Source of the DNA: Lachnospiraceae bacterium
GTDB taxonomy: Bacteria > Bacillota > Clostridia > Lachnospirales > Lachnospiraceae
Length of the DNA: 64,000 bases
Assembly: GCA_016284315.1 (NCBI GenBank)
Contig: JAEEOO010000028.1
Location: forward strand, 1-64,000
Direction: 5' to 3'
Within the stretch, counting starts at the first letter, position 1. Each line of letters starts with the position of its first letter. Made by a program: the position numbers and the translations under genes. Shown piece after piece: positions 3,099 to 56,161 of this stretch. Under the pieces are notes generated by a model. The model saw only the letters and a program-made list of their open reading frames with translations, had not been told where the DNA came from and did not search any database.

Positions 3099-4979
3099 TC
3101 AGTTTTCATAAAACACAGCCGTCAAATCCCCCTCACCGGAATATGCATACATGCCCATCATGGCACCGGTAAAACGCTTGCCTTTCTTTAGCCCTTCATC
3201 GCATAAGTAATAGACATTATCTAATACTCCAAACACAGTATTACCATCGTCTGCATCCATATAACTATATGACAGTCTACGCACCAGATAACTTGTATTC
3301 ATGATCAGCTTTATTTTCTTCGCTCCCGAGTGAACCGGCTCATTGGAAATCAATAAATCATCATTATCCCCCACATGCTCATTGGAGTATAAGTACATTT
3401 TTCCATTACGGCAGATTATTCCGAACTCAAAGAAAGTATTCTCATCATAATAGCCGGTGATGCCGGCAGTCTGCCCCTCATTCATTTCAGGAATCTCCAG
3501 TATGGCTGAATATTCAAAATCAAAAGAAGTTTGTCTTCTGAGAACTATGTTCCGGCTGTCAACACTTGAAAGTGGCGCCTTACTTCCCTTAATCTCAAAA
3601 CGACCTGCGTAAGGGTCGTACTTCACATCTCCATCTGCAAATGGGCGGGGAGTCATATAATCCATCGGAAGTCCACAGGGTGAGATTCCCGGTTCCCTGG
3701 CAGAAACACTATCAGCAAATGGCTTTACCTGCATGGCTGACGGACCCTTGAGGTTATTTACAATCGGCCATCCGTCCGGTGTCCATGTTACAGGATCGAG
3801 TGCTGTCTCTCTTCCTAAAAGACTGTACCCATCTCCTATCATCCGTCCACACAGATACACCATATACCAGCGCCCATCCTGAGTTTCTACCAGATCTCCG
3901 TGTCCACATCGCTGGATCGCTGCATCAGGATCATCCTGCCTCATTATTGGATTGTAGGGACAGGTTTCATAGTTGCCAAAAAGCTCTTTTGACCTGGAAA
4001 CAGTTACCCTGTGGCCGGGACCGGTTCCACCCTCTGCTTCAAGAAGATAATAGTAGCCGTCCTTTTTATACAGATGTGGGCCTTCAGGTGCTCTCTTATG
4101 GTCTCCATAAAACAATAGTCTTGCTTCAGAAATCTGTTTTGATCCGGACTCATCCAGTTCAATTATCCTGGCGCCCCTGTTAAGGAGCATATATCTTTTC
4201 CCATCGTCGTCATTAAAGATACTGGGATCAATTCCATCTTCATCTATAAATACCGGCTCTGTGTATGGACCTTCAGGTTTTTCAGAAGAAACAACAATCT
4301 GTCTTCTGTAGGTTGGTGGTACATCGTTGAGCCTATATGTCGCTGTTATATAGTATCGCCCCTTGTAAAAAGAGATATCGGGAGCCCAGTAGCCTCTTCC
4401 GCCTTCGAGTTCGTCAAGATGCGCCCAATCAGGATTGGTTATAGCATGACCTATGATCTCCCAGTGGATCAGATCCCTGGAATGGGAAATTGGGATGCAG
4501 GGAAAAAAGATAAAGGAAGAATTCACCATGTAGTAATCATCTCCCACCCTGCAAATTGATGGATCAGGAAAAAATCCTGTCCTTATGGGATTACGATAGA
4601 AGTCCTCGTATTTATGGTCATATCTTTCGCACAGGTAATCCTCAATCGCAGGATATTTGTCATGTACCAGATCCCAAGGTGTCACAAGGTGCTTATCTCC
4701 ACAAACTGGATCCATTCCACATTTTTCTACGAGATACCTGAACACTTCCAGATTCCCGGATTCAGCTCCATAGTGCAGTACATTCCTGTGGTCATCATCA
4801 TATTCGTTAAGACTGATCCTGGAATACTCCACAAGAAACCTCAGTATTTCCAGGTTGCCCTTTTGAGCAGCACAAAAAAGCGCTTCTTTACTCACAAGAG
4901 AAGGTTCCTGTATTAACGCGCTCTTAACTGTATCTATATTATTGTCTTTAATATCTGTAATTAGTCTGGTAGCGTCCAT
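3099..4979 (-). CDS. Ankyrin-repeat/GH43 glycoside hydrolase fusion, predicted cytoplasmic
   Basis: This 626-aa protein has three parts. Residues about 1-125 are ankyrin-like repeats (EALFCAAQKGNLEILRFLVE; NVLHYGAESGNLEVFRYLVE). Residues about 130-440 are a GH43 five-blade propeller. The remainder is a beta-sandwich of the kind attached to many GH43 beta-xylosidases. The GH43 catalytic triad is visible: Asp139 (FFPDPS), Asp251 (GIDPSIF) and Glu299 (APEGPHLY). No signal peptide is present, so it should act inside the cell on imported oligosaccharides, probably xylo- or arabino-oligomers. Substrate is not deducible. The repeat domain may mediate partner binding. The start has AGGGA 6 nt upstream and overlaps a short leader ORF. 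Confidence 0.9.
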   Translation of the reverse strand: MDATRLITDIKDNNIDTVKSALIQEPSLVSKEALFCAAQKGNLEILRFLVEYSRISLNEYDDDHRNVLHYGAESGNLEVFRYLVEKCGMDPVCGDKHLVTPWDLVHDKYPAIEDYLCERYDHKYEDFYRNPIRTGFFPDPSICRVGDDYYMVNSSFIFFPCIPISHSRDLIHWEIIGHAITNPDWAHLDELEGGRGYWAPDISFYKGRYYITATYRLNDVPPTYRRQIVVSSEKPEGPYTEPVFIDEDGIDPSIFNDDDGKRYMLLNRGARIIELDESGSKQISEARLLFYGDHKRAPEGPHLYKKDGYYYLLEAEGGTGPGHRVTVSRSKELFGNYETCPYNPIMRQDDPDAAIQRCGHGDLVETQDGRWYMVYLCGRMIGDGYSLLGRETALDPVTWTPDGWPIVNNLKGPSAMQVKPFADSVSAREPGISPCGLPMDYMTPRPFADGDVKYDPYAGRFEIKGSKAPLSSVDSRNIVLRRQTSFDFEYSAILEIPEMNEGQTAGITGYYDENTFFEFGIICRNGKMYLYSNEHVGDNDDLLISNEPVHSGAKKIKLIMNTSYLVRRLSYSYMDADDGNTVFGVLDNVYYLCDEGLKKGKRFTGAMMGMYAYSGEGDLTAVFYEN

Positions 4980-8011: not shown

Positions 8012-8470
8012 TCACTCACCATCCTTTCTGCTCTTGAGAATATCGTAAATAGCAAACTTTACGGGATATTCTGAGCTGTCAACAATGATCTGAGCTGCCT
8101 TGCGCTCTTCAGCATTGATAACGATGGGTCCCTGAAGGTTAACAGACATCTTGGTAAGGTCTGAAGGAACCGTTACGGTAACAAGGACAAGGATATTGTT
8201 CTCGTTTAAATCGCCCAGTCCGCTGAGGAGCTCATCGTTTACCTCAGGATCGTAATCGCTCTTAACAATAAGGGGATCCATTACGGGGAGTGCAAATCCG
8301 GGCTCGTCAAGTGACTGTAAGTATCTGATGCCTGCGTTTGTTCCAAGCTCTTCATCATGAATCAGCGTGAAACGTCTAAGATCGGGAAATCCGATGATGC
8401 CCTTATCGAATGTAAGGATCTTGTCATCTGCAATATCGATCTCTCCGAAAATTCTGGTGTTAATCTTCAT
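8012..8470 (-). CDS. fliW: Flagellar assembly factor FliW
   Basis: This 152-aa protein binds CsrA and flagellin and relieves CsrA repression when flagellin is exported. The family pattern is visible: FDKGIIGFPDLRRFTLI near the N-terminus, then GFALPVMDPLIV and ILVLVTV with LQGPIVINAEERKAAQII. The ATG at 8470 follows GGAAAGGAG; the track's longer start is a TTG without good spacing. It is followed immediately by csrA. Confidence 0.96.
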   Translation of the reverse strand: MKINTRIFGEIDIADDKILTFDKGIIGFPDLRRFTLIHDEELGTNAGIRYLQSLDEPGFALPVMDPLIVKSDYDPEVNDELLSGLGDLNENNILVLVTVTVPSDLTKMSVNLQGPIVINAEERKAAQIIVDSSEYPVKFAIYDILKSRKDGE

Positions 8471-8617
8471 GATTCTCCTTTCCGGCAAACGTCATGTCTG
8501 CCTGTGCCTCATGCACAAAAACTAGTTTTTTCGTGACAACATCATTGTATCACACAAAGAGTATATCGGCTCATTTTTTTATGAACTTTATACTCTTTGT
8601 TTGGTATCTGTATTTAA

Positions 8618-10285
8618 TTAAATGTAATTCAGAAGTGTATTCTGGATGATCTTGCCGGTGGCGGTAAGAGCTGCCTGGTAGGTCATCTCAGAGCTTGAAA
8701 GCTGGATGGCAACTTCTGTAATATCGATATCCTCGTTCTCGCTCCTAAGAGTTTCGAAGGTGGTCTTCTGGTTCTGCATACGGCTCTGGATAAGCTCCAG
8801 TTTGCTTGAACGGGTACCGACATTGGTTATTGCAAGGGAGGTGTCATCGAGATACTTCTGGAAGGAGGTGATTCCCTTCTCAAATCTCTTCTGGCAAACA
8901 TCCTTTTCGTAGGTCAGTGCCTTCTCAGCTGCAACGAGCTGGTTCTGGAGAGTATTGAGAGCAAGCTCATTTGAGGTCTCAGCGATCTTGGTCTCGATAT
9001 TGCTCTTTACCGCTTCAAGATTCTGTACTTTCTGAAGAGCTGCCACAAGGTCATCTACTTCGCGGCCGATTCCAAGGTTGTAGGATTCGTCTGCGGTTGA
9101 GTTGATTCGGATGGTCTGGTTGAATCCGACGTCATACTCGATGGACTGCTTGTCAACGATTCCCTTTAAGTAGTCAGCGTTGTACATAATGTCCTTGTAA
9201 ACGGTATCGGTATTGGCTCCGCTTGCATCGGTCTCCCACTCGGTTGCTTTGCAAGCGTAATAGTGTTCGGGGCGAAGGTCGGTTGCCTCGAAATTGGTCT
9301 TCGAGTAGTTGACCTTGATCTCACCTTCGGTTATTCCTGCTGTGGTGGGATCGTCCTTGGTGGACATAAGCTTTGCGTAAAGGTTTTTTCCAATGATAAG
9401 TTCGCCGGTATCGGTGATAAGATTCATCTCATCGTCACCAACTTGGTAAATGGTGGGGTCTGTTGAAAGACCGGACTTCTTTACATCTACGGTCTTTTCT
9501 TTATATTCTGCATCTACCTCATCGTATTCATAATAACTTAATGAAGGAGTCTTCTTAATGGTATGAGTTTTTCCTTCATTGTCTGTATATGTAATATCCT
9601 GTAATGCATCAAGATAGGTTCCGCTTCCGTCAGCCTTTCCGTCTACATCGTTATATGCGAGTCTTAATCTATAGCACTCTGTAGTCTCAATCTGGCTTTC
9701 GTTAACCGATGACATTGTTCCCGTATTAAAATTCGCAGCGGTCCATCCATCGATGGCTGAGGAATTAACATAGGTAAAGCTGTCGAGAGCAGTCTTGTCA
9801 AGCTGCTCGGTGAGCTGATAGGTTACGTTCTTGCTTGCCTTCTGGAAAGAAAGTGATGTGTCGGTCCTGTAGCCTGTAAAGACATATCTTCCCGCATAGC
9901 TTGCGTCGCCGGTCTTGTAGACTTCATCGCCAAGGGCCTTGAGCTGTTCGATGATGATCTTTCTGTCATCGCTGGTAAGATCACCATTGGATCCTCTGGT
10001 GGCCTGTTCGATCATCTTGGTAACGATTGAAGAGGTGTTCTTAAGAGCATCCTCAGTTACCTGAAGCCAGCTGTCCGCATCGGGAATATTCTTGCTGTAA
10101 TACTGAGTAACTTCTGTAACATTACTGCGAAGTCTAAGAGCTCTGATCGCGATAACGGGATCGTCTGATGCTCTGTTGATCTTCTTCTGAGTGGACATCT
10201 GGGTTGTGAGATTGTCCTGAAGGACTTTATTTGAGTTGATGTTATTCAGAGAGTTTCTCTGCATTATCTTGTTAGTGATTCTCAT
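8618..10285 (-). CDS. flgL: Flagellar hook-filament junction protein FlgL (HAP3), long form
   Basis: The N-terminus (MRITNKIMQRNSLNNINSN, then ASDDPVIAIRALRLRSNV) and C-terminus (SSKLELIQSRMQNQKTTFETLRSENEDID, then TEVAIQLSSSEMTYQAAL) are the conserved D0/D1 helices shared with flagellin. At 555 aa it is much longer than the roughly 300-aa enteric FlgL. The extra length is a central, presumably surface-exposed region (about residues 150-400). It joins hook-associated protein 1 to the filament outside the cell. It follows flgK by 23 bp in the operon. Confidence 0.95.
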   Translation of the reverse strand: MRITNKIMQRNSLNNINSNKVLQDNLTTQMSTQKKINRASDDPVIAIRALRLRSNVTEVTQYYSKNIPDADSWLQVTEDALKNTSSIVTKMIEQATRGSNGDLTSDDRKIIIEQLKALGDEVYKTGDASYAGRYVFTGYRTDTSLSFQKASKNVTYQLTEQLDKTALDSFTYVNSSAIDGWTAANFNTGTMSSVNESQIETTECYRLRLAYNDVDGKADGSGTYLDALQDITYTDNEGKTHTIKKTPSLSYYEYDEVDAEYKEKTVDVKKSGLSTDPTIYQVGDDEMNLITDTGELIIGKNLYAKLMSTKDDPTTAGITEGEIKVNYSKTNFEATDLRPEHYYACKATEWETDASGANTDTVYKDIMYNADYLKGIVDKQSIEYDVGFNQTIRINSTADESYNLGIGREVDDLVAALQKVQNLEAVKSNIETKIAETSNELALNTLQNQLVAAEKALTYEKDVCQKRFEKGITSFQKYLDDTSLAITNVGTRSSKLELIQSRMQNQKTTFETLRSENEDIDITEVAIQLSSSEMTYQAALTATGKIIQNTLLNYI

Positions 10286-10308: not shown

Positions 10309-12402
10309 TTATACACCTGTCTGAAGGATAAGTCTGTCGTAAATCTCCTGGAACACCTGGATCATCTTGGATGAGAGGTTGTATGCGTTCTGGAATTTAA
10401 CGAGATTAACTGCTTCTTCATCTTCATCAACGCCGGAGATCGATGTTCTCTTTACGTCGATGCTGTTCTGAATATTTTCGTAGCTTGCTTCAAAGGTTCT
10501 TGCGCTTGCAGAGTTAAGAGCTACGTCGGAAAGTACCGACTGAAGGAACTTGTCTGCGGATGATCCTCTGAAGGAAAGGACTTCTTTATTGAATGCGATC
10601 TCTCTTAAGTGCTCGATAAGGTCATTCTGTTCAACACCGTCCTCAGCCTTGAACTTGTTTGCCATAAGTGAGGGATCGTTTGAAAGTGCGGTGGTAATTG
10701 TAAAGTTACCTGCGGTCAGTCTGTAGTAGCTGTCGTCGGCTACGTTAACTGAGTAGGAATCAAGCTTACCGTCATTATCTGCATCTCCGGCATATGCTCC
10801 GTACTTCGTGCTGAAGAGAAGCTGTGAAGACTCGAGACCTTCCTGATAGCTGGCCTTGTCACCGGTAAACATCTCGGTGTTGGTCGCTCCGCCGTCGCCC
10901 TTTGAAAGGGTATCGTTGTAAGCTGCTGCGAATACTCTTACCCACTCGTTCATCTGACGCATGTAGTAAGGGATTCCCTGATAATTGATGTTTGAACCGA
11001 TCTTACACGTCTTGCCTTCGCGGTCGTTGGTGATGTGGCTGGTGTTGCCGTTTCCAACTTCGGAAAGGACTATATCGTAGGTGTATTTACCGGTAGTTGC
11101 GTCGTAGTTAAAAGTCCAGGAATCGTAAGCGAACTCTTTGTTTCCGATATTGATGATTCCGCCCTGATCTGAGAGGTTGCTCTTATCAAGATCCTTGAGC
11201 CACTCTGCGGTAACTTCTACGGTTGCAAGATCATTATCATGATGGATCACTGTTGAAAGATCAGTGGGGTTCTTAACAATTCGTCCTGTATCATTTCCAT
11301 CAGCATCCTTCTCAGTGTAGTAACCATTGGATGTTGTTGTAACAGTTCCTGTAAAGTACTCGCCGTTGTTACCGTCTCTTAATTCAACAAGTCCGCGGAG
11401 CTTTCCGCCCATTGCTGCGTTGTCCAGATGGAACTTCTGACCACGCTCTTTTACGTAATCGTTCCAGCTCTGCTTCTCATCGTTGGGGATGGTGTCATTG
11501 GTTACAACGTCTGCCTGGTAGGTTGAATATAATGAAGAGGATACCCAGTAAACATCGTAGAGTCCGTCGATATCCGTCTGGTTTACTTTCTCAGTGTTTG
11601 CTCTTGCCACAACTTCAAGCTTGTGGTAATCGCTCATATCAACCAGGATCTGGCCTCCCGCGATCTTTACGATGTAGCGGTTAGCGCCGGTCTCTCTTGT
11701 GGGATCGTTGGCGTCGGTGATAGGTGTTTCAACTGTAGTTACGTCTACGATCTCTGAGAGTTCATCGATGAGCTTTGTTCTCTGGTCACGAAGTTCGTTT
11801 GCCTTCTGGCCGGTAAGCTCGATGGTATTGATCTGCTTGTTTAAGGATGCGATCTCGCTTGCGTAGGAGTTGATCTGGTCAACCTGAAGCTTGATCTCGG
11901 AGTTGATGTCCTTCTGCATCTTCTGAAGGTTTCCGTAAACTCCGTTAAAGTAGTCGGTAAGCTGGCCGGCATATCCGACGAGCTGTGACTTGGTTGAAGC
12001 GTCTGAGGGGTTCTTCATGAGCTCTTCCAGTCCCTTGATGGCGAACTGGTCAAATACCTGTGAGAATCCTGCGTTGTTACCGGAATCGTAGAAGTAACCT
12101 TCCATCTCTTCCATGTAGTATGACTTCATGTGGTACTCACCAACGGTTGCATTGTTGTTCCAGAATTTTGCATCGTAGAACTCGTCCCTTATTCTTTCAA
12201 CTGCAAGGGTAGCAACGCCGGCACCTGCGCATCCGTAGGTTGCGAAGGTTCTGATAGCTTCTGCTGCCTGGGTCTTTACTTCCTGGCGGCTGTAACCTTT
12301 GGTTTGTACGTTTGAGATATTGTTTGCGGTTGTATTGAGGGACGCATTACTTGCAAGCAATCCCGAATATGCTATGTTAAGTCCAAAAAATGTTGAAGAC
12401 AT
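10309..12402 (-). CDS. flgK: Flagellar hook-associated protein FlgK, second copy
   Basis: This 697-aa protein has the FlgK N-terminus (FFGLNIAYSGLLASNASLNTTANNISNVQTKGYSRQ) and the C-terminal D0 helix (EDEEAVNLVKFQNAYNLSSKMIQVFQEIYDRL). It is the downstream of two adjacent FlgK-type genes; the two differ clearly in sequence, so this is not a recent duplication. The central variable domain is large and acidic. It may form a hetero-junction with the other copy or replace it. SD AAAGGAGG precedes the ATG. Confidence 0.93.
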   Translation of the reverse strand: MSSTFFGLNIAYSGLLASNASLNTTANNISNVQTKGYSRQEVKTQAAEAIRTFATYGCAGAGVATLAVERIRDEFYDAKFWNNNATVGEYHMKSYYMEEMEGYFYDSGNNAGFSQVFDQFAIKGLEELMKNPSDASTKSQLVGYAGQLTDYFNGVYGNLQKMQKDINSEIKLQVDQINSYASEIASLNKQINTIELTGQKANELRDQRTKLIDELSEIVDVTTVETPITDANDPTRETGANRYIVKIAGGQILVDMSDYHKLEVVARANTEKVNQTDIDGLYDVYWVSSSLYSTYQADVVTNDTIPNDEKQSWNDYVKERGQKFHLDNAAMGGKLRGLVELRDGNNGEYFTGTVTTTSNGYYTEKDADGNDTGRIVKNPTDLSTVIHHDNDLATVEVTAEWLKDLDKSNLSDQGGIINIGNKEFAYDSWTFNYDATTGKYTYDIVLSEVGNGNTSHITNDREGKTCKIGSNINYQGIPYYMRQMNEWVRVFAAAYNDTLSKGDGGATNTEMFTGDKASYQEGLESSQLLFSTKYGAYAGDADNDGKLDSYSVNVADDSYYRLTAGNFTITTALSNDPSLMANKFKAEDGVEQNDLIEHLREIAFNKEVLSFRGSSADKFLQSVLSDVALNSASARTFEASYENIQNSIDVKRTSISGVDEDEEAVNLVKFQNAYNLSSKMIQVFQEIYDRLILQTGV

Positions 12403-12420: not shown

Positions 12421-14331
12421 TTAAGCAAGTGATGTAAGAAGATGCTCCAGCATCTCGTCCACCACGTTTATAAAGCGGCTTGATGCGTTGTAAGCGCTCT
12501 GGAATTTGATCATGTTTGAAAGTTCTTCGTCGGATGATACGGCGTGAACCTGATCTCTTGCACTCTCTGCTGCGCTTACTGTGTTTTCCTGGTTCTCATA
12601 GATGGCGTTGTAAACGTAAGATGAGTTTGCAACCTGAGAAACAAGATCGTCGTAATATCCTAAAACGCTTACCTGCTTTAATACGTTGGGGTTAAGGGTG
12701 TGGATCTCGTCAGTGAAGACTGCCTTGAGCTTTGCCATGGTGTTAAGGTCTTCGGATCCGTCCTCAAGTCTGAATCCAAGTTTTGCAGGTGCCTGCATCA
12801 GTTCCTGATTCATCTGGGTGTTTGAAAGTGAGTAGAGAGTGTAGATCTCTTCGGGAGCGTAACTCTCTTTTTCGTATACCCAGTAGTCACCGTCAAGTGA
12901 ATTTCCATTGCCATCGGTTAATCCGGTGAGATGAAGCTTTGTGTATCCCTTTCCACCGATCTTTTCAAAAATTGAATAGGGGATTCCTTCTTCGTTGGTA
13001 AGGTATCCGTCAGGATTTACTGCGATAGCCTTGATAGTAGTGTTTCCCGAGTCATCGGTGTAGGTAAATTCTGAAAGGTTTACAGCGTTTCCGTCCTCAT
13101 CAGTTGCGGTAACCATTGGTGTAGCAGTTGTTCCGGTTGAGAAAGTGGTACGGCCTGCTGCATCTGCAAGTACATCGTTGATGGATACCATTGTGTTATG
13201 AATGAGCTGGTCAAATTCTGCCTGAACATTCATAAGAACTGACTGGGAAACTTTATCGTACTCTCCGCCTGCGATATCTGCATAGGTGGCTCTGTGGTCG
13301 CCTCTTGCAAGGAGCATTGCCTTTACTCCGCCGATATCGGTTCCAAGCTCTGAAGATACTTCTCTGTTTAAATTGAAAACAAGTGCGTTCTCAATGTTAA
13401 ATGTCTTTGTCTTTAAAGTGGTAACACCGTTCTGGGTGATGTCTTTCTTTAATACTCCGTCGGTGGTGATCAGCATTCCCTTTCCATTGGGGAACTCGTC
13501 ACTTCCGGGAAGAACGTTTGCGTTCTGGGGCCAGAAGGGTGTGTAGAATCCGGTAATGGAATTAACGTCGAGCCCGATCTGGTAGCAGGTGCTTCCCTTT
13601 ACGAAGTCCTCGCCTTCGATCTGAACGTATACGTTTCCGAAGGTGTCGGTATCGTAGGTAATGTCAACAAGCTTTGACAATTCATCAAGGATCAGGTTTC
13701 TCTGGTCCTTAAGGTCGTTGGCATGCTCGATCTTGCCCATCTCGATAGCTCTGATCTGGTCGTTTAAGTCAAGGATCTTTTGTCCGTATTCATTTATCTT
13801 TTCTACTTGCTGTTTTACCTGGAGATTCAGGTTGTCCTGATAGCCCGAAAGCCCGTCGTATACGGACTGAGCTCTGGTGAGAAACTCAGAAGCCTCCTGG
13901 ATAAGTGTGCTCTGGGTAACAGAGCTGCAAGGATCCTTAGATAACTCCTGAACTGCAGTCCAGAGATCGGAAAGCTGGGTCTGGAAGGCTTCGCCGTTCA
14001 TTTCTCCGAGCTGATCCTCAACTTCAAGAAGGGTATCTCTCGATACCTCGTAAAACATACTTCTTCCCGATTCTTTTCTGAAAGTTCTGTCGAGGAAATA
14101 ATCTCTGATCTGCTTTACATTAGAATATGATACACCAAGACCGGACTGCTGCGGAGAAACCGCGCTGGCCGTCTTGGAAATGGTCATGTATAATTTGTCG
14201 GACTGTTCAACCTGCTGACGAGTGTAACCTTCCGTATCTGCATTGGTGAGGTTATGCGCAACGGTGTTAAGCGCATTGTGACTCGTCTGCAATCCGGAGG
14301 TTCCCACATATAAGCTGCTCCACAAGGACAT
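12421..14331 (-). CDS. flgK: Flagellar hook-associated protein FlgK, first copy
   Basis: This 636-aa protein starts SLWSSLYVGTSGLQTSHNALNTVAHNLTNADTEGYTRQQ and ends SDEELSNMIKFQSAYNASSRFINVVDEMLEHLL, both diagnostic of FlgK D0/D1. It would sit at the hook-filament junction. It lies directly after flgN, the FlgK/FlgL export chaperone, and 18 bp before the second FlgK. SD is GGAGG. Of the two copies this one is closer to the usual FlgK length. Confidence 0.94.
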   Translation of the reverse strand: MSLWSSLYVGTSGLQTSHNALNTVAHNLTNADTEGYTRQQVEQSDKLYMTISKTASAVSPQQSGLGVSYSNVKQIRDYFLDRTFRKESGRSMFYEVSRDTLLEVEDQLGEMNGEAFQTQLSDLWTAVQELSKDPCSSVTQSTLIQEASEFLTRAQSVYDGLSGYQDNLNLQVKQQVEKINEYGQKILDLNDQIRAIEMGKIEHANDLKDQRNLILDELSKLVDITYDTDTFGNVYVQIEGEDFVKGSTCYQIGLDVNSITGFYTPFWPQNANVLPGSDEFPNGKGMLITTDGVLKKDITQNGVTTLKTKTFNIENALVFNLNREVSSELGTDIGGVKAMLLARGDHRATYADIAGGEYDKVSQSVLMNVQAEFDQLIHNTMVSINDVLADAAGRTTFSTGTTATPMVTATDEDGNAVNLSEFTYTDDSGNTTIKAIAVNPDGYLTNEEGIPYSIFEKIGGKGYTKLHLTGLTDGNGNSLDGDYWVYEKESYAPEEIYTLYSLSNTQMNQELMQAPAKLGFRLEDGSEDLNTMAKLKAVFTDEIHTLNPNVLKQVSVLGYYDDLVSQVANSSYVYNAIYENQENTVSAAESARDQVHAVSSDEELSNMIKFQSAYNASSRFINVVDEMLEHLLTSLA

Positions 14332-28547: not shown

Positions 28548-29120
28548 TCAGAAGTTGTAGTACATGTCAAAGGAGTCGTGAATCTCACCGTTAATAACAC
28601 TGTATACTTTCTGCTCTGCAAGGTTGATGTAGATCTCGATTGACTTAACATCAGCGCTCTTTAATCCAAGATCGAATTTAGCACGATCCTTTGCAGTCTT
28701 GAGATACTGCTTTAAGAGTGCATCAGCTGATACGTTCTTTCCATCAACTGCAAATACAGCATTGGTCTTAACAACGGTTTTCTTAGCAGCTTTCTTAGCG
28801 GGCTTCTTTGTAGCTACCTTCTTTGCGGTTGTAGCCTTCTTTGCTACTTCCTTCTTAGCAGGTGCTGCCTTCTTTGCGGTAGCAGCCTTCTTTGCAGGTG
28901 CCTTCTTTGCTGCTTCCTTCTTAGCAGGTGCTGCAGCTTTCTTTGCAGGTGCCTTCTTTGCTACTTCTTTCTTCGCAGGTGCTGCCTTCTTTGCAGCGGG
29001 CTTCTTTGCAGCGGCCTTCTTAGGTGCTTCTTTCTTAGCAGCTTCTGCAGCAGGTGCAGCAGCCTTCACTTCAGTGCTAGCGGTTGTAGCCTTAGCTACA
29101 GTTTTCTTGGTAACTGCCAT
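28548..29120 (-). CDS. Lys/Ala/Pro-rich histone-H1-like protein with DUF6465-type C-terminal domain
   Basis: Residues about 25-115 of this 190-aa protein are PAKKA/KKAPAKK-type repeats, as in eukaryotic H1 tails and bacterial H1-like proteins. The last 70 residues (FAVDGKNVSADALLKQYLK to IEIYINLAEQKVYSVINGE) form a small domain resembling DUF6465, known mainly from Lachnospiraceae. It probably binds nucleic acid through the basic tail; the C-terminal domain role is unknown. The gene has a consensus promoter and its own terminator, so it is likely abundant. The long ORF on the opposite strand (28699..29139) is a shadow of the repeat. Confidence 0.85.
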   Translation of the reverse strand: MAVTKKTVAKATTASTEVKAAAPAAEAAKKEAPKKAAAKKPAAKKAAPAKKEVAKKAPAKKAAAPAKKEAAKKAPAKKAATAKKAAPAKKEVAKKATTAKKVATKKPAKKAAKKTVVKTNAVFAVDGKNVSADALLKQYLKTAKDRAKFDLGLKSADVKSIEIYINLAEQKVYSVINGEIHDSFDMYYNF

Positions 29121-55267: not shown

Positions 55268-56014
55268 TTACTTTTTATCATCAGCAGGCTTAACAGCAAC
55301 AGGTCTCTTGAAAGCGGGCTTAACGGTAGCTGCTGCGGCTGCAACGGTCTCTTTAACTGCCTTTGCTGCAACATCTGCAGTTTCTTTAGCTCCCTTTGCT
55401 GCGGTATCAGCGGTAACCTTAGCGGTTTCCTTAGCTACTCCGGCTACTTTCTTGGTCTCCTCGGTTGCCTTCTTTGCTACTTTCTTTGTTTCTGCAGTAG
55501 CTTTCTTTGCTACCTTCTTGGTTTCTTTCTTAGTATCGGCAGCTACCTTCTTTGCAGTCTCGGTAGCCTTCTTGGTTGCTTTCTTGGTCTCGGCCTCAGC
55601 CTTCTTAGCAACCTTCTTGGTTTCTGCGGTAGCTTTCTTTGCTACCTTCTTGGTTTCCTCTGCAGCCTTCTTAACTGCTTTCTTTGCTGCACTTACTGTA
55701 CGAAGTGAGAGGATCTTGTTGGCAACCTCTACATTGCCGGCAACGGTGTATTTCTGTGCTGCGTAAGCATCTGCGGGCTCAACTTTTCCGTCAACCACAT
55801 CAATGAGAACTTTTGAATCGATGTCAACAAGAGCATCGTTATCATAGTAATCATAGGGCTGAACATTGAACTTTCCTTCGGAAACCTCAATATAGAAAGC
55901 GCCTTCTCCCTCTCCTTTTACATTGATCTGAATGGCTTTGTGACCGTCAACGTCCCAGCCTTCAGCCTTTGCGTATGCTTTCTGCACCTTTTCAACAATC
56001 TTTTCGTAAGTCAT
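55268..56014 (-). CDS. SCP2-like domain protein with Lys/Ala/Thr-rich LEA/H1-like tail
   Basis: The ATG at 56014 follows AAGGAGG and gives 248 aa. Residues about 1-105 resemble an SCP2 sterol-carrier fold (HKAIQINVKGEGEGAFYIEVSEGKFNV to DALVDIDSKVLIDVVDGKVEPADAYAAQKYTVAGN). About 105-225 is ETKKVAKKAT-type repeats with the 11-residue look of LEA/apolipoprotein proteins and H1 tails. The SCP2 call is moderate. A basic tail joined to a possible lipid-binding fold could bind nucleic acid or the membrane surface. It sits just upstream of luxS; the reverse-strand ORF 55308..55766 is a shadow. Confidence 0.75.
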   Translation of the reverse strand: MTYEKIVEKVQKAYAKAEGWDVDGHKAIQINVKGEGEGAFYIEVSEGKFNVQPYDYYDNDALVDIDSKVLIDVVDGKVEPADAYAAQKYTVAGNVEVANKILSLRTVSAAKKAVKKAAEETKKVAKKATAETKKVAKKAEAETKKATKKATETAKKVAADTKKETKKVAKKATAETKKVAKKATEETKKVAGVAKETAKVTADTAAKGAKETADVAAKAVKETVAAAAATVKPAFKRPVAVKPADDKK

Positions 56015-56161
56015 TTTTTCCTCCTTAAATCCATCTTTAAAACTCGTAATTCTAAAAACATACATTAAGAACAAAATAAAGAACAAACAAACTATTCACA
56101 TTATAATGCCAAGTTTCTTCAAATACAACAAATAATAGCGAGAAAATTTGTATATTTATAC

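Follow-up and report, generated by a model that had tools for sequence, protein, structure and literature searches.

The window analysed here, a stretch of 64,000 nucleotides from a contig (JAEEOO010000028.1, assembly GCA_016284315.1) of a gut Lachnospiraceae bacterium with kinship to Butyrivibrio, carries on its minus strand a gene, P0001, that translates as a single 626-amino-acid frame with zero internal stops (Table 1). An earlier note, made from the sequence alone, had claimed that one frame joins ankyrin repeats to a GH43 glycosidase with an intact catalytic triad and a beta-sandwich, and this is borne out: the N terminus does score as ankyrin in a domain search (Ank_2 at residues 11 to 91, E 2e-12, plus Ank_4, Ank_3 and Ank, all above the curated Pfam cut-offs), the GH43 profile scores 282.3 bits against a cut-off of 32.2, the GH43_C2 profile (PF17851) scores 85.1 bits against a cut-off of 22.7, and the triad is invariant among relatives. 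The ankyrin-GH43 combination is, therefore, confirmed as real. A hydrophobic N-terminal signal was not visible on inspection of the P0001 sequence, in line with the note's claim that there is no signal peptide. P0001 is the sole Ank_2 match in its own genome (2.25 Mb, 81% complete).

Table 1. Positions within the window of the ankyrin-GH43 gene, its domains and its residues of interest
Feature	Positions	Strand	Basis
Ankyrin-GH43 fusion gene P0001, 626 aa	3099..4979	-	ORF, translation, Pfam
Ankyrin module, aa 1-124, four predicted helix pairs	4608..4979	-	Pfam Ank_2/Ank_4/Ank; AlphaFold pLDDT mostly 93-98
Near-invariant finger loop, aa 50-59 (VEYSRISLNE), candidate contact surface	4803..4832	-	28-fusion alignment
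GH43 catalytic beta-propeller, aa 128-405	3765..4598	-	Pfam PF04616, E 5.7e-84; Foldseek best match 6ms3
Codon of D139, general base	4563..4565	-	invariant in relatives
Codon of D251, pKa modulator	4227..4229	-	invariant in relatives
Codon of E299, general acid	4083..4085	-	invariant in relatives
Codons of H360-G361-D362; D362 aligns with BlXynB K247	3894..3902	-	alignment
GH43_C2 concanavalin-like beta-sandwich, aa 437-618	3126..3671	-	Pfam PF17851, E 6.8e-24

Elsewhere in the window, two adjacent genes for FlgK-like hook-associated proteins lie in tandem on the minus strand (10309-12402 and 12421-14331), followed on the same strand by FlgL-like (8618-10285) and FliW-like (8012-8488) genes. 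Two further minus-strand genes (28548-29120 and 55268-56086) encode Lys/Ala-rich, histone-H1-like proteins with motifs such as KKAAAKK and TKKVAKKA.

An AlphaFold2 model of P0001, built on an alignment of 49 relatives with ankyrin-less ones included, has a mean pLDDT of 93.5 and a pTM of 0.91. In an earlier run with 28 close homologues the GH43 part was poor, with a pLDDT of 37-51 in most blocks of residues 131-180, and was repaired once ankyrin-less relatives joined the alignment. Both models give four ankyrin helix pairs (residues 3-24, 31-52, 67-86 and 101-120), so that the earlier note was right about ankyrin but not about a count of two repeats; the single-repeat Pfam models Ank and Ank_3 pick up just the two canonical repeats. 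The junction with the GH43 domain (residues 121-127) is modelled without a low-confidence linker. The best fold match in Foldseek is BlXynB of Bacillus licheniformis (6ms3/6ms2; TMt 0.91, 42% identity), and matches to 6ms3, 5jow, 2exj and others support a five-bladed propeller.

BlXynB shares with P0001 the propeller, the C-terminal sandwich and the triad but has no ankyrin module. The same fold and triad are found at 28-32% identity in the GH43_C2 beta-xylosidases of Geobacillus (2EXH), B. halodurans (1YRZ) and B. subtilis (1YIF), which are also without the module. The alpha-L-arabinofuranosidases BoGH43A/B of Bacteroides ovatus (5JOW, 5JOZ) again have the fold, the triad and an Asp after the conserved GH(A/G) motif; they differ in identity (about 31%), in lacking an ankyrin module and in genomic setting. 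The Xsa43 enzymes of Butyrivibrio (PMC5217386, PMC6344614) represent the same concept of a cytosolic GH43 xylosidase/arabinofuranosidase, yet their described partner domains are CBM6 or an esterase and the word ankyrin is absent from both papers. Canonical ankyrin repeats are shared with other bacterial proteins, including Dot/Icm effectors, but in P0001 they sit on a metabolic enzyme of rumen and gut commensals, and the best score of P0001 against the NCBIfam models of Dot/Icm ankyrin effectors was 14.8 bits against a cut-off of 600. Another ankyrin-enzyme fusion, an M48 peptidase with a C-terminal ankyrin array, was seen in a Lachnospiraceae locus (L096:562-1947).

In terms of the GH43 triad described in PMC7809346, D139 is the general base, D251 the pKa modulator and E299 the general acid. 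All three are invariant across the 49 relatives, ankyrin-bearing and ankyrin-less, and likewise across the 74 catalytic domains compared, save for one row gapped at D139. Invariant alongside them in both kinds of relative is H360, which may be the counterpart of His288 of XacGH43_1, a residue that coordinates the active-site calcium (PMC7809346). The position of D362 is occupied in BlXynB by K247, the residue mutated in 6MS3 (K247S); Lys247, a class feature of BlXynB-like enzymes, is thus replaced in P0001 by Asp. In the 2019 work of Zanphorlin et al. the natural Lys247 enzyme is said to be inactive. Every one of the 9 ankyrin-less sister enzymes has Lys at this position, as do most of the deep members of the ankyrin clade. 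Within that clade Asp is found only in a 25-row Butyrivibrio clade that includes P0001 (SH-aLRT of 100), and hence one Lys-to-Asp change suffices; the more distant BoGH43A and Geobacillus 5z5d likewise carry Asp. Because the triad and H360 are invariant and residue 362 is Asp rather than Lys, we would expect P0001 to be catalytically active. It was also observed that the Lys after the conserved GHG motif is clade-wide among ankyrin-less BlXynB-like enzymes of Bacillus and Lachnospiraceae and not a quirk of a single enzyme.

Conservation is highest in the catalytic domain, intermediate in the ankyrin module and lower again in the C-terminal sandwich. Within the ankyrin module it is most striking in the finger loop between helix pairs two and three, where V50, E51, Y52 and L57 are invariant among 28 fusions and S53, R54, S56 and E59 are conserved at 93-96%; this conservation extends to positions at which consensus ankyrin repeats vary. 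The ratio dN/dS for the ankyrin region is about 0.01-0.08 in pairs with measurable, unsaturated dS, and the module is therefore maintained by purifying selection. An alignment of the named loci shows that the first helix pair is absent in one Butyrivibrio subset (L012, L014-L017, L019 and L020), so that this pair is dispensable and there is no strict need for the module in its entirety. The pattern fits a fixed protein contact. The module is rigidly attached, and its most likely role is that of a fixed protein-protein surface, rather than sugar binding.

A scan of GTDB genomes, in which we kept loci whose relatives of P0001 extend into the ankyrin part, gave 31 loci (L002-L032) from Butyrivibrio and other Lachnospiraceae, Solobacterium/Erysipelotrichaceae and one Clostridia MAG; ankyrin-less relatives begin at 43% identity, with Bacillus (L033 and L034). 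The fusion is present in 29 of 397 sampled Lachnospiraceae genomes and in other families of the same order, whereas relatives from outside the family in a 399-genome sample of the phylum are all ankyrin-less. Its occurrence in the window's own genus is patchy: an ankyrin match above cut-off occurs in 4 of 31 genomes, in all four cases inside this kind of frame. The same architecture, which the earlier note had proposed to look for elsewhere, is therefore recovered in many other genomes, and the claim of novelty stands only in part: the fusion is widespread in one bacterial order, yet a description of it was not found in the open literature searched, either as an ankyrin-GH43 fusion or as ankyrin together with CAZyme terms. 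When 73 catalytic domains are placed in a tree, the 54 rows with ankyrin form a single clade (SH-aLRT of 96), whose sister group consists of ankyrin-less enzymes, BlXynB of Bacillus among them, and so a single gain of the ankyrin module suffices.

Most of the loci L005 to L031 have a common gene order, in which two permeases of the ABC sugar type are followed by a GDSL esterase, a second GH43 without ankyrin (A) and the ankyrin GH43 (B). Downstream lie an MsbA-like ABC exporter and/or a xylose-isomerase-like TIM-barrel protein. Farther upstream, two Butyrivibrio genomes encode a lipoprotein of the substrate-binding type and a member of the altronate/galactarate dehydratase family, together with a LacI regulator and a glucuronate isomerase that in L186 scores above its NCBIfam cut-off. 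In L188 there are an alpha-xylosidase and a gluconate 5-dehydrogenase, each scoring above its cut-off, and some loci have GH88 (L021) and a pectate-lyase-like protein downstream. We infer from this conserved neighbourhood that the substrates are pectic, galacturonate-containing oligosaccharides rather than simple xylan. Glucuronoxylan could be an alternative, and a GH115-like gene that adjoins the ankyrin GH43 in the near relative L004 could also mean xylan; arabino- and xylo-oligosaccharides are possible substrates of P0001.

The copy in the window stands outside this operon, flanked by a GNAT-like gene and lysS. An IS200/IS605-like pair on the minus strand (981-2435; TnpA-like 2022-2435 and TnpB-like 981-2021, with a zinc-finger motif) lies a few hundred bases from the relocated gene and could bear on its move. 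The orthologous galacturonate cluster is found on another contig of the same genome (C40); it includes GH28, GH88 and pectinesterase genes as well as an importer, a GDSL esterase, a dehydratase and UxaC, while both GH43s are absent from it. Where other Butyrivibrio have both GH43s, this contig (L198:15342-18787) has a MatE transporter and a GH28 with no obvious signal peptide. A third contig (C21) carries a homologue of A at 52% identity, which may be a paralogue of the A found in operons, next to a large protein with a pectinesterase domain.

A is directly upstream of B in most named operons, often with a 4-base overlap or a few tens of bases apart. In four loci (L130, L133, L135 and L138; genomes G075, G223, G300 and G419 of the family) A and the ankyrin-bearing B form a single GH43-ankyrin-GH43 chain of 1131-1189 residues. 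Three genomes of the window's genus (G011, G004 and G019) have chains of 1052-1067 residues in which A is fused to an ankyrin-less B (L146, L147 and L150), and on the tree the fusion of A to B needs about five changes in all. Homologues of A, counted at E <= 1e-100, a threshold that lets in looser ones (about 50%) beside the close ones (56-67%), are present in 26 of the 29 genomes with ankyrin-B and in 15 of 16 with ankyrin-less B, against 50 of 397 overall, figures that kinship and lifestyle inflate. As ankyrin-less B is also paired with, and even fused to, A, the pairing does not need ankyrin and is a property of B enzymes generally; the idea that the ankyrin domain causes the pairing is weakened accordingly. 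The ankyrin module may thus have entered an existing partnership of A and B. The earlier note had guessed that the repeats tether the enzyme to a transporter or another hydrolase: the linkage to both is seen in the neighbourhoods and the GH43-ankyrin-GH43 chains, whereas tethering by the repeat domain itself is a plausible proposal, which the equal pairing of ankyrin-less B weakens.

Our preferred reading, which we regard as probable, is that P0001 is a cytosolic, exo-acting GH43 xylosidase or arabinofuranosidase with an ankyrin module of single gain, which trims imported, likely pectic, oligosaccharides. An ancestor in the order that includes Lachnospiraceae gained the N-terminal module once. 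The enzyme, of the beta-xylosidase/alpha-L-arabinofuranosidase type with BlXynB as its nearest solved structure, would remove xylosyl or arabinosyl groups from oligosaccharides brought in by the ABC transporter, with the second cytosolic GH43 and the GDSL esterase working alongside it, and this trimming would most likely form one step in the use of pectin/galacturonate. The ankyrin module, rigidly attached, would present a fixed surface toward its own catalytic domain, a second copy in an oligomer or the partner GH43. In the window species the gene has left the operon. The architecture, the intact triad, the single gain, the purifying selection on the module, the gene neighbourhood and the fusions to A are shown directly; the class of substrate, the exo-acting mode and the function of the module are inferences from them. 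The place of the window copy outside the pectin cluster, the GH115-like neighbour in L004 and the pairing of ankyrin-less sister enzymes with A all speak against this reading.

What the module contacts is the point on which readings diverge. A purely intramolecular or oligomer-forming role, in which the module rests against its own propeller or against another copy of the enzyme and so shapes the positive subsites or stability, has in our view somewhat less than an even chance: the high pTM and short ordered junction of the model would fit it, as would conservation centred on one loop and retained in orphan copies that have no partner gene next to them, but the Butyrivibrio subset without the first helix pair does not. 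It is also possible, if rather unlikely, that the module is a docking domain that holds A beside B in a two-enzyme complex removing side groups in sequence. The adjacency of A and B, their fusion around an ankyrin module, the co-occurrence counts and the invariant loop inside the module would all agree with docking; however, ankyrin-less B co-occurs with A and fuses to it equally, orphan copies such as that in the window stand apart from A, and the counts carry the confounding and mixed threshold given above. A stronger form of this proposal, for which we see only a small chance, is that ankyrin serves in the cytosol as a specialised docking domain between enzymes, in loose analogy to dockerins, and brings two GH43s together on imported oligosaccharides that contain uronate; as the gain preceded the Lys-to-Asp change beside the active-site His, a GH43 lineage of weak activity may have become active again after it.

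Two other readings concern the enzyme itself. That P0001 is a poor or conditional catalyst, serving mainly as a scaffold or sensor, is suggested by the Lys of the sister group and most deep ankyrin members, but we consider it very improbable given the Asp that P0001 and its 25-row clade share with BoGH43A and 5z5d, the invariant triad and H360, and a catalytic domain that is the most conserved part of the protein. That the frame results from a frameshift or an error of assembly, or is a functionless chance fusion, could be suspected from one relative, L032, which reads as two ORFs. This split is due to a one-base change in a T run within the conserved GFFPDPS motif, and L032 is ruled out as a natural, unfused pair of overlapping ankyrin and GH43 genes. 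More than 50 genomes carry the fusion intact, its ankyrin part is under purifying selection, and an artefact is hardly credible.

The accessory domains found on plant-fibre enzymes mostly bind carbohydrate and lie outside the cell. A protein-interaction module that is conserved on a cytosolic GH43 and kept throughout an abundant clade of the gut and rumen, would be a tractable case of intracellular enzyme organisation, to which the repeated fusion with a second GH43 in a single chain adds. The peculiar Lys247 of BlXynB, moreover, is now placed as a conserved trait of a whole lineage that was switched once to Asp, and its role is directly testable.
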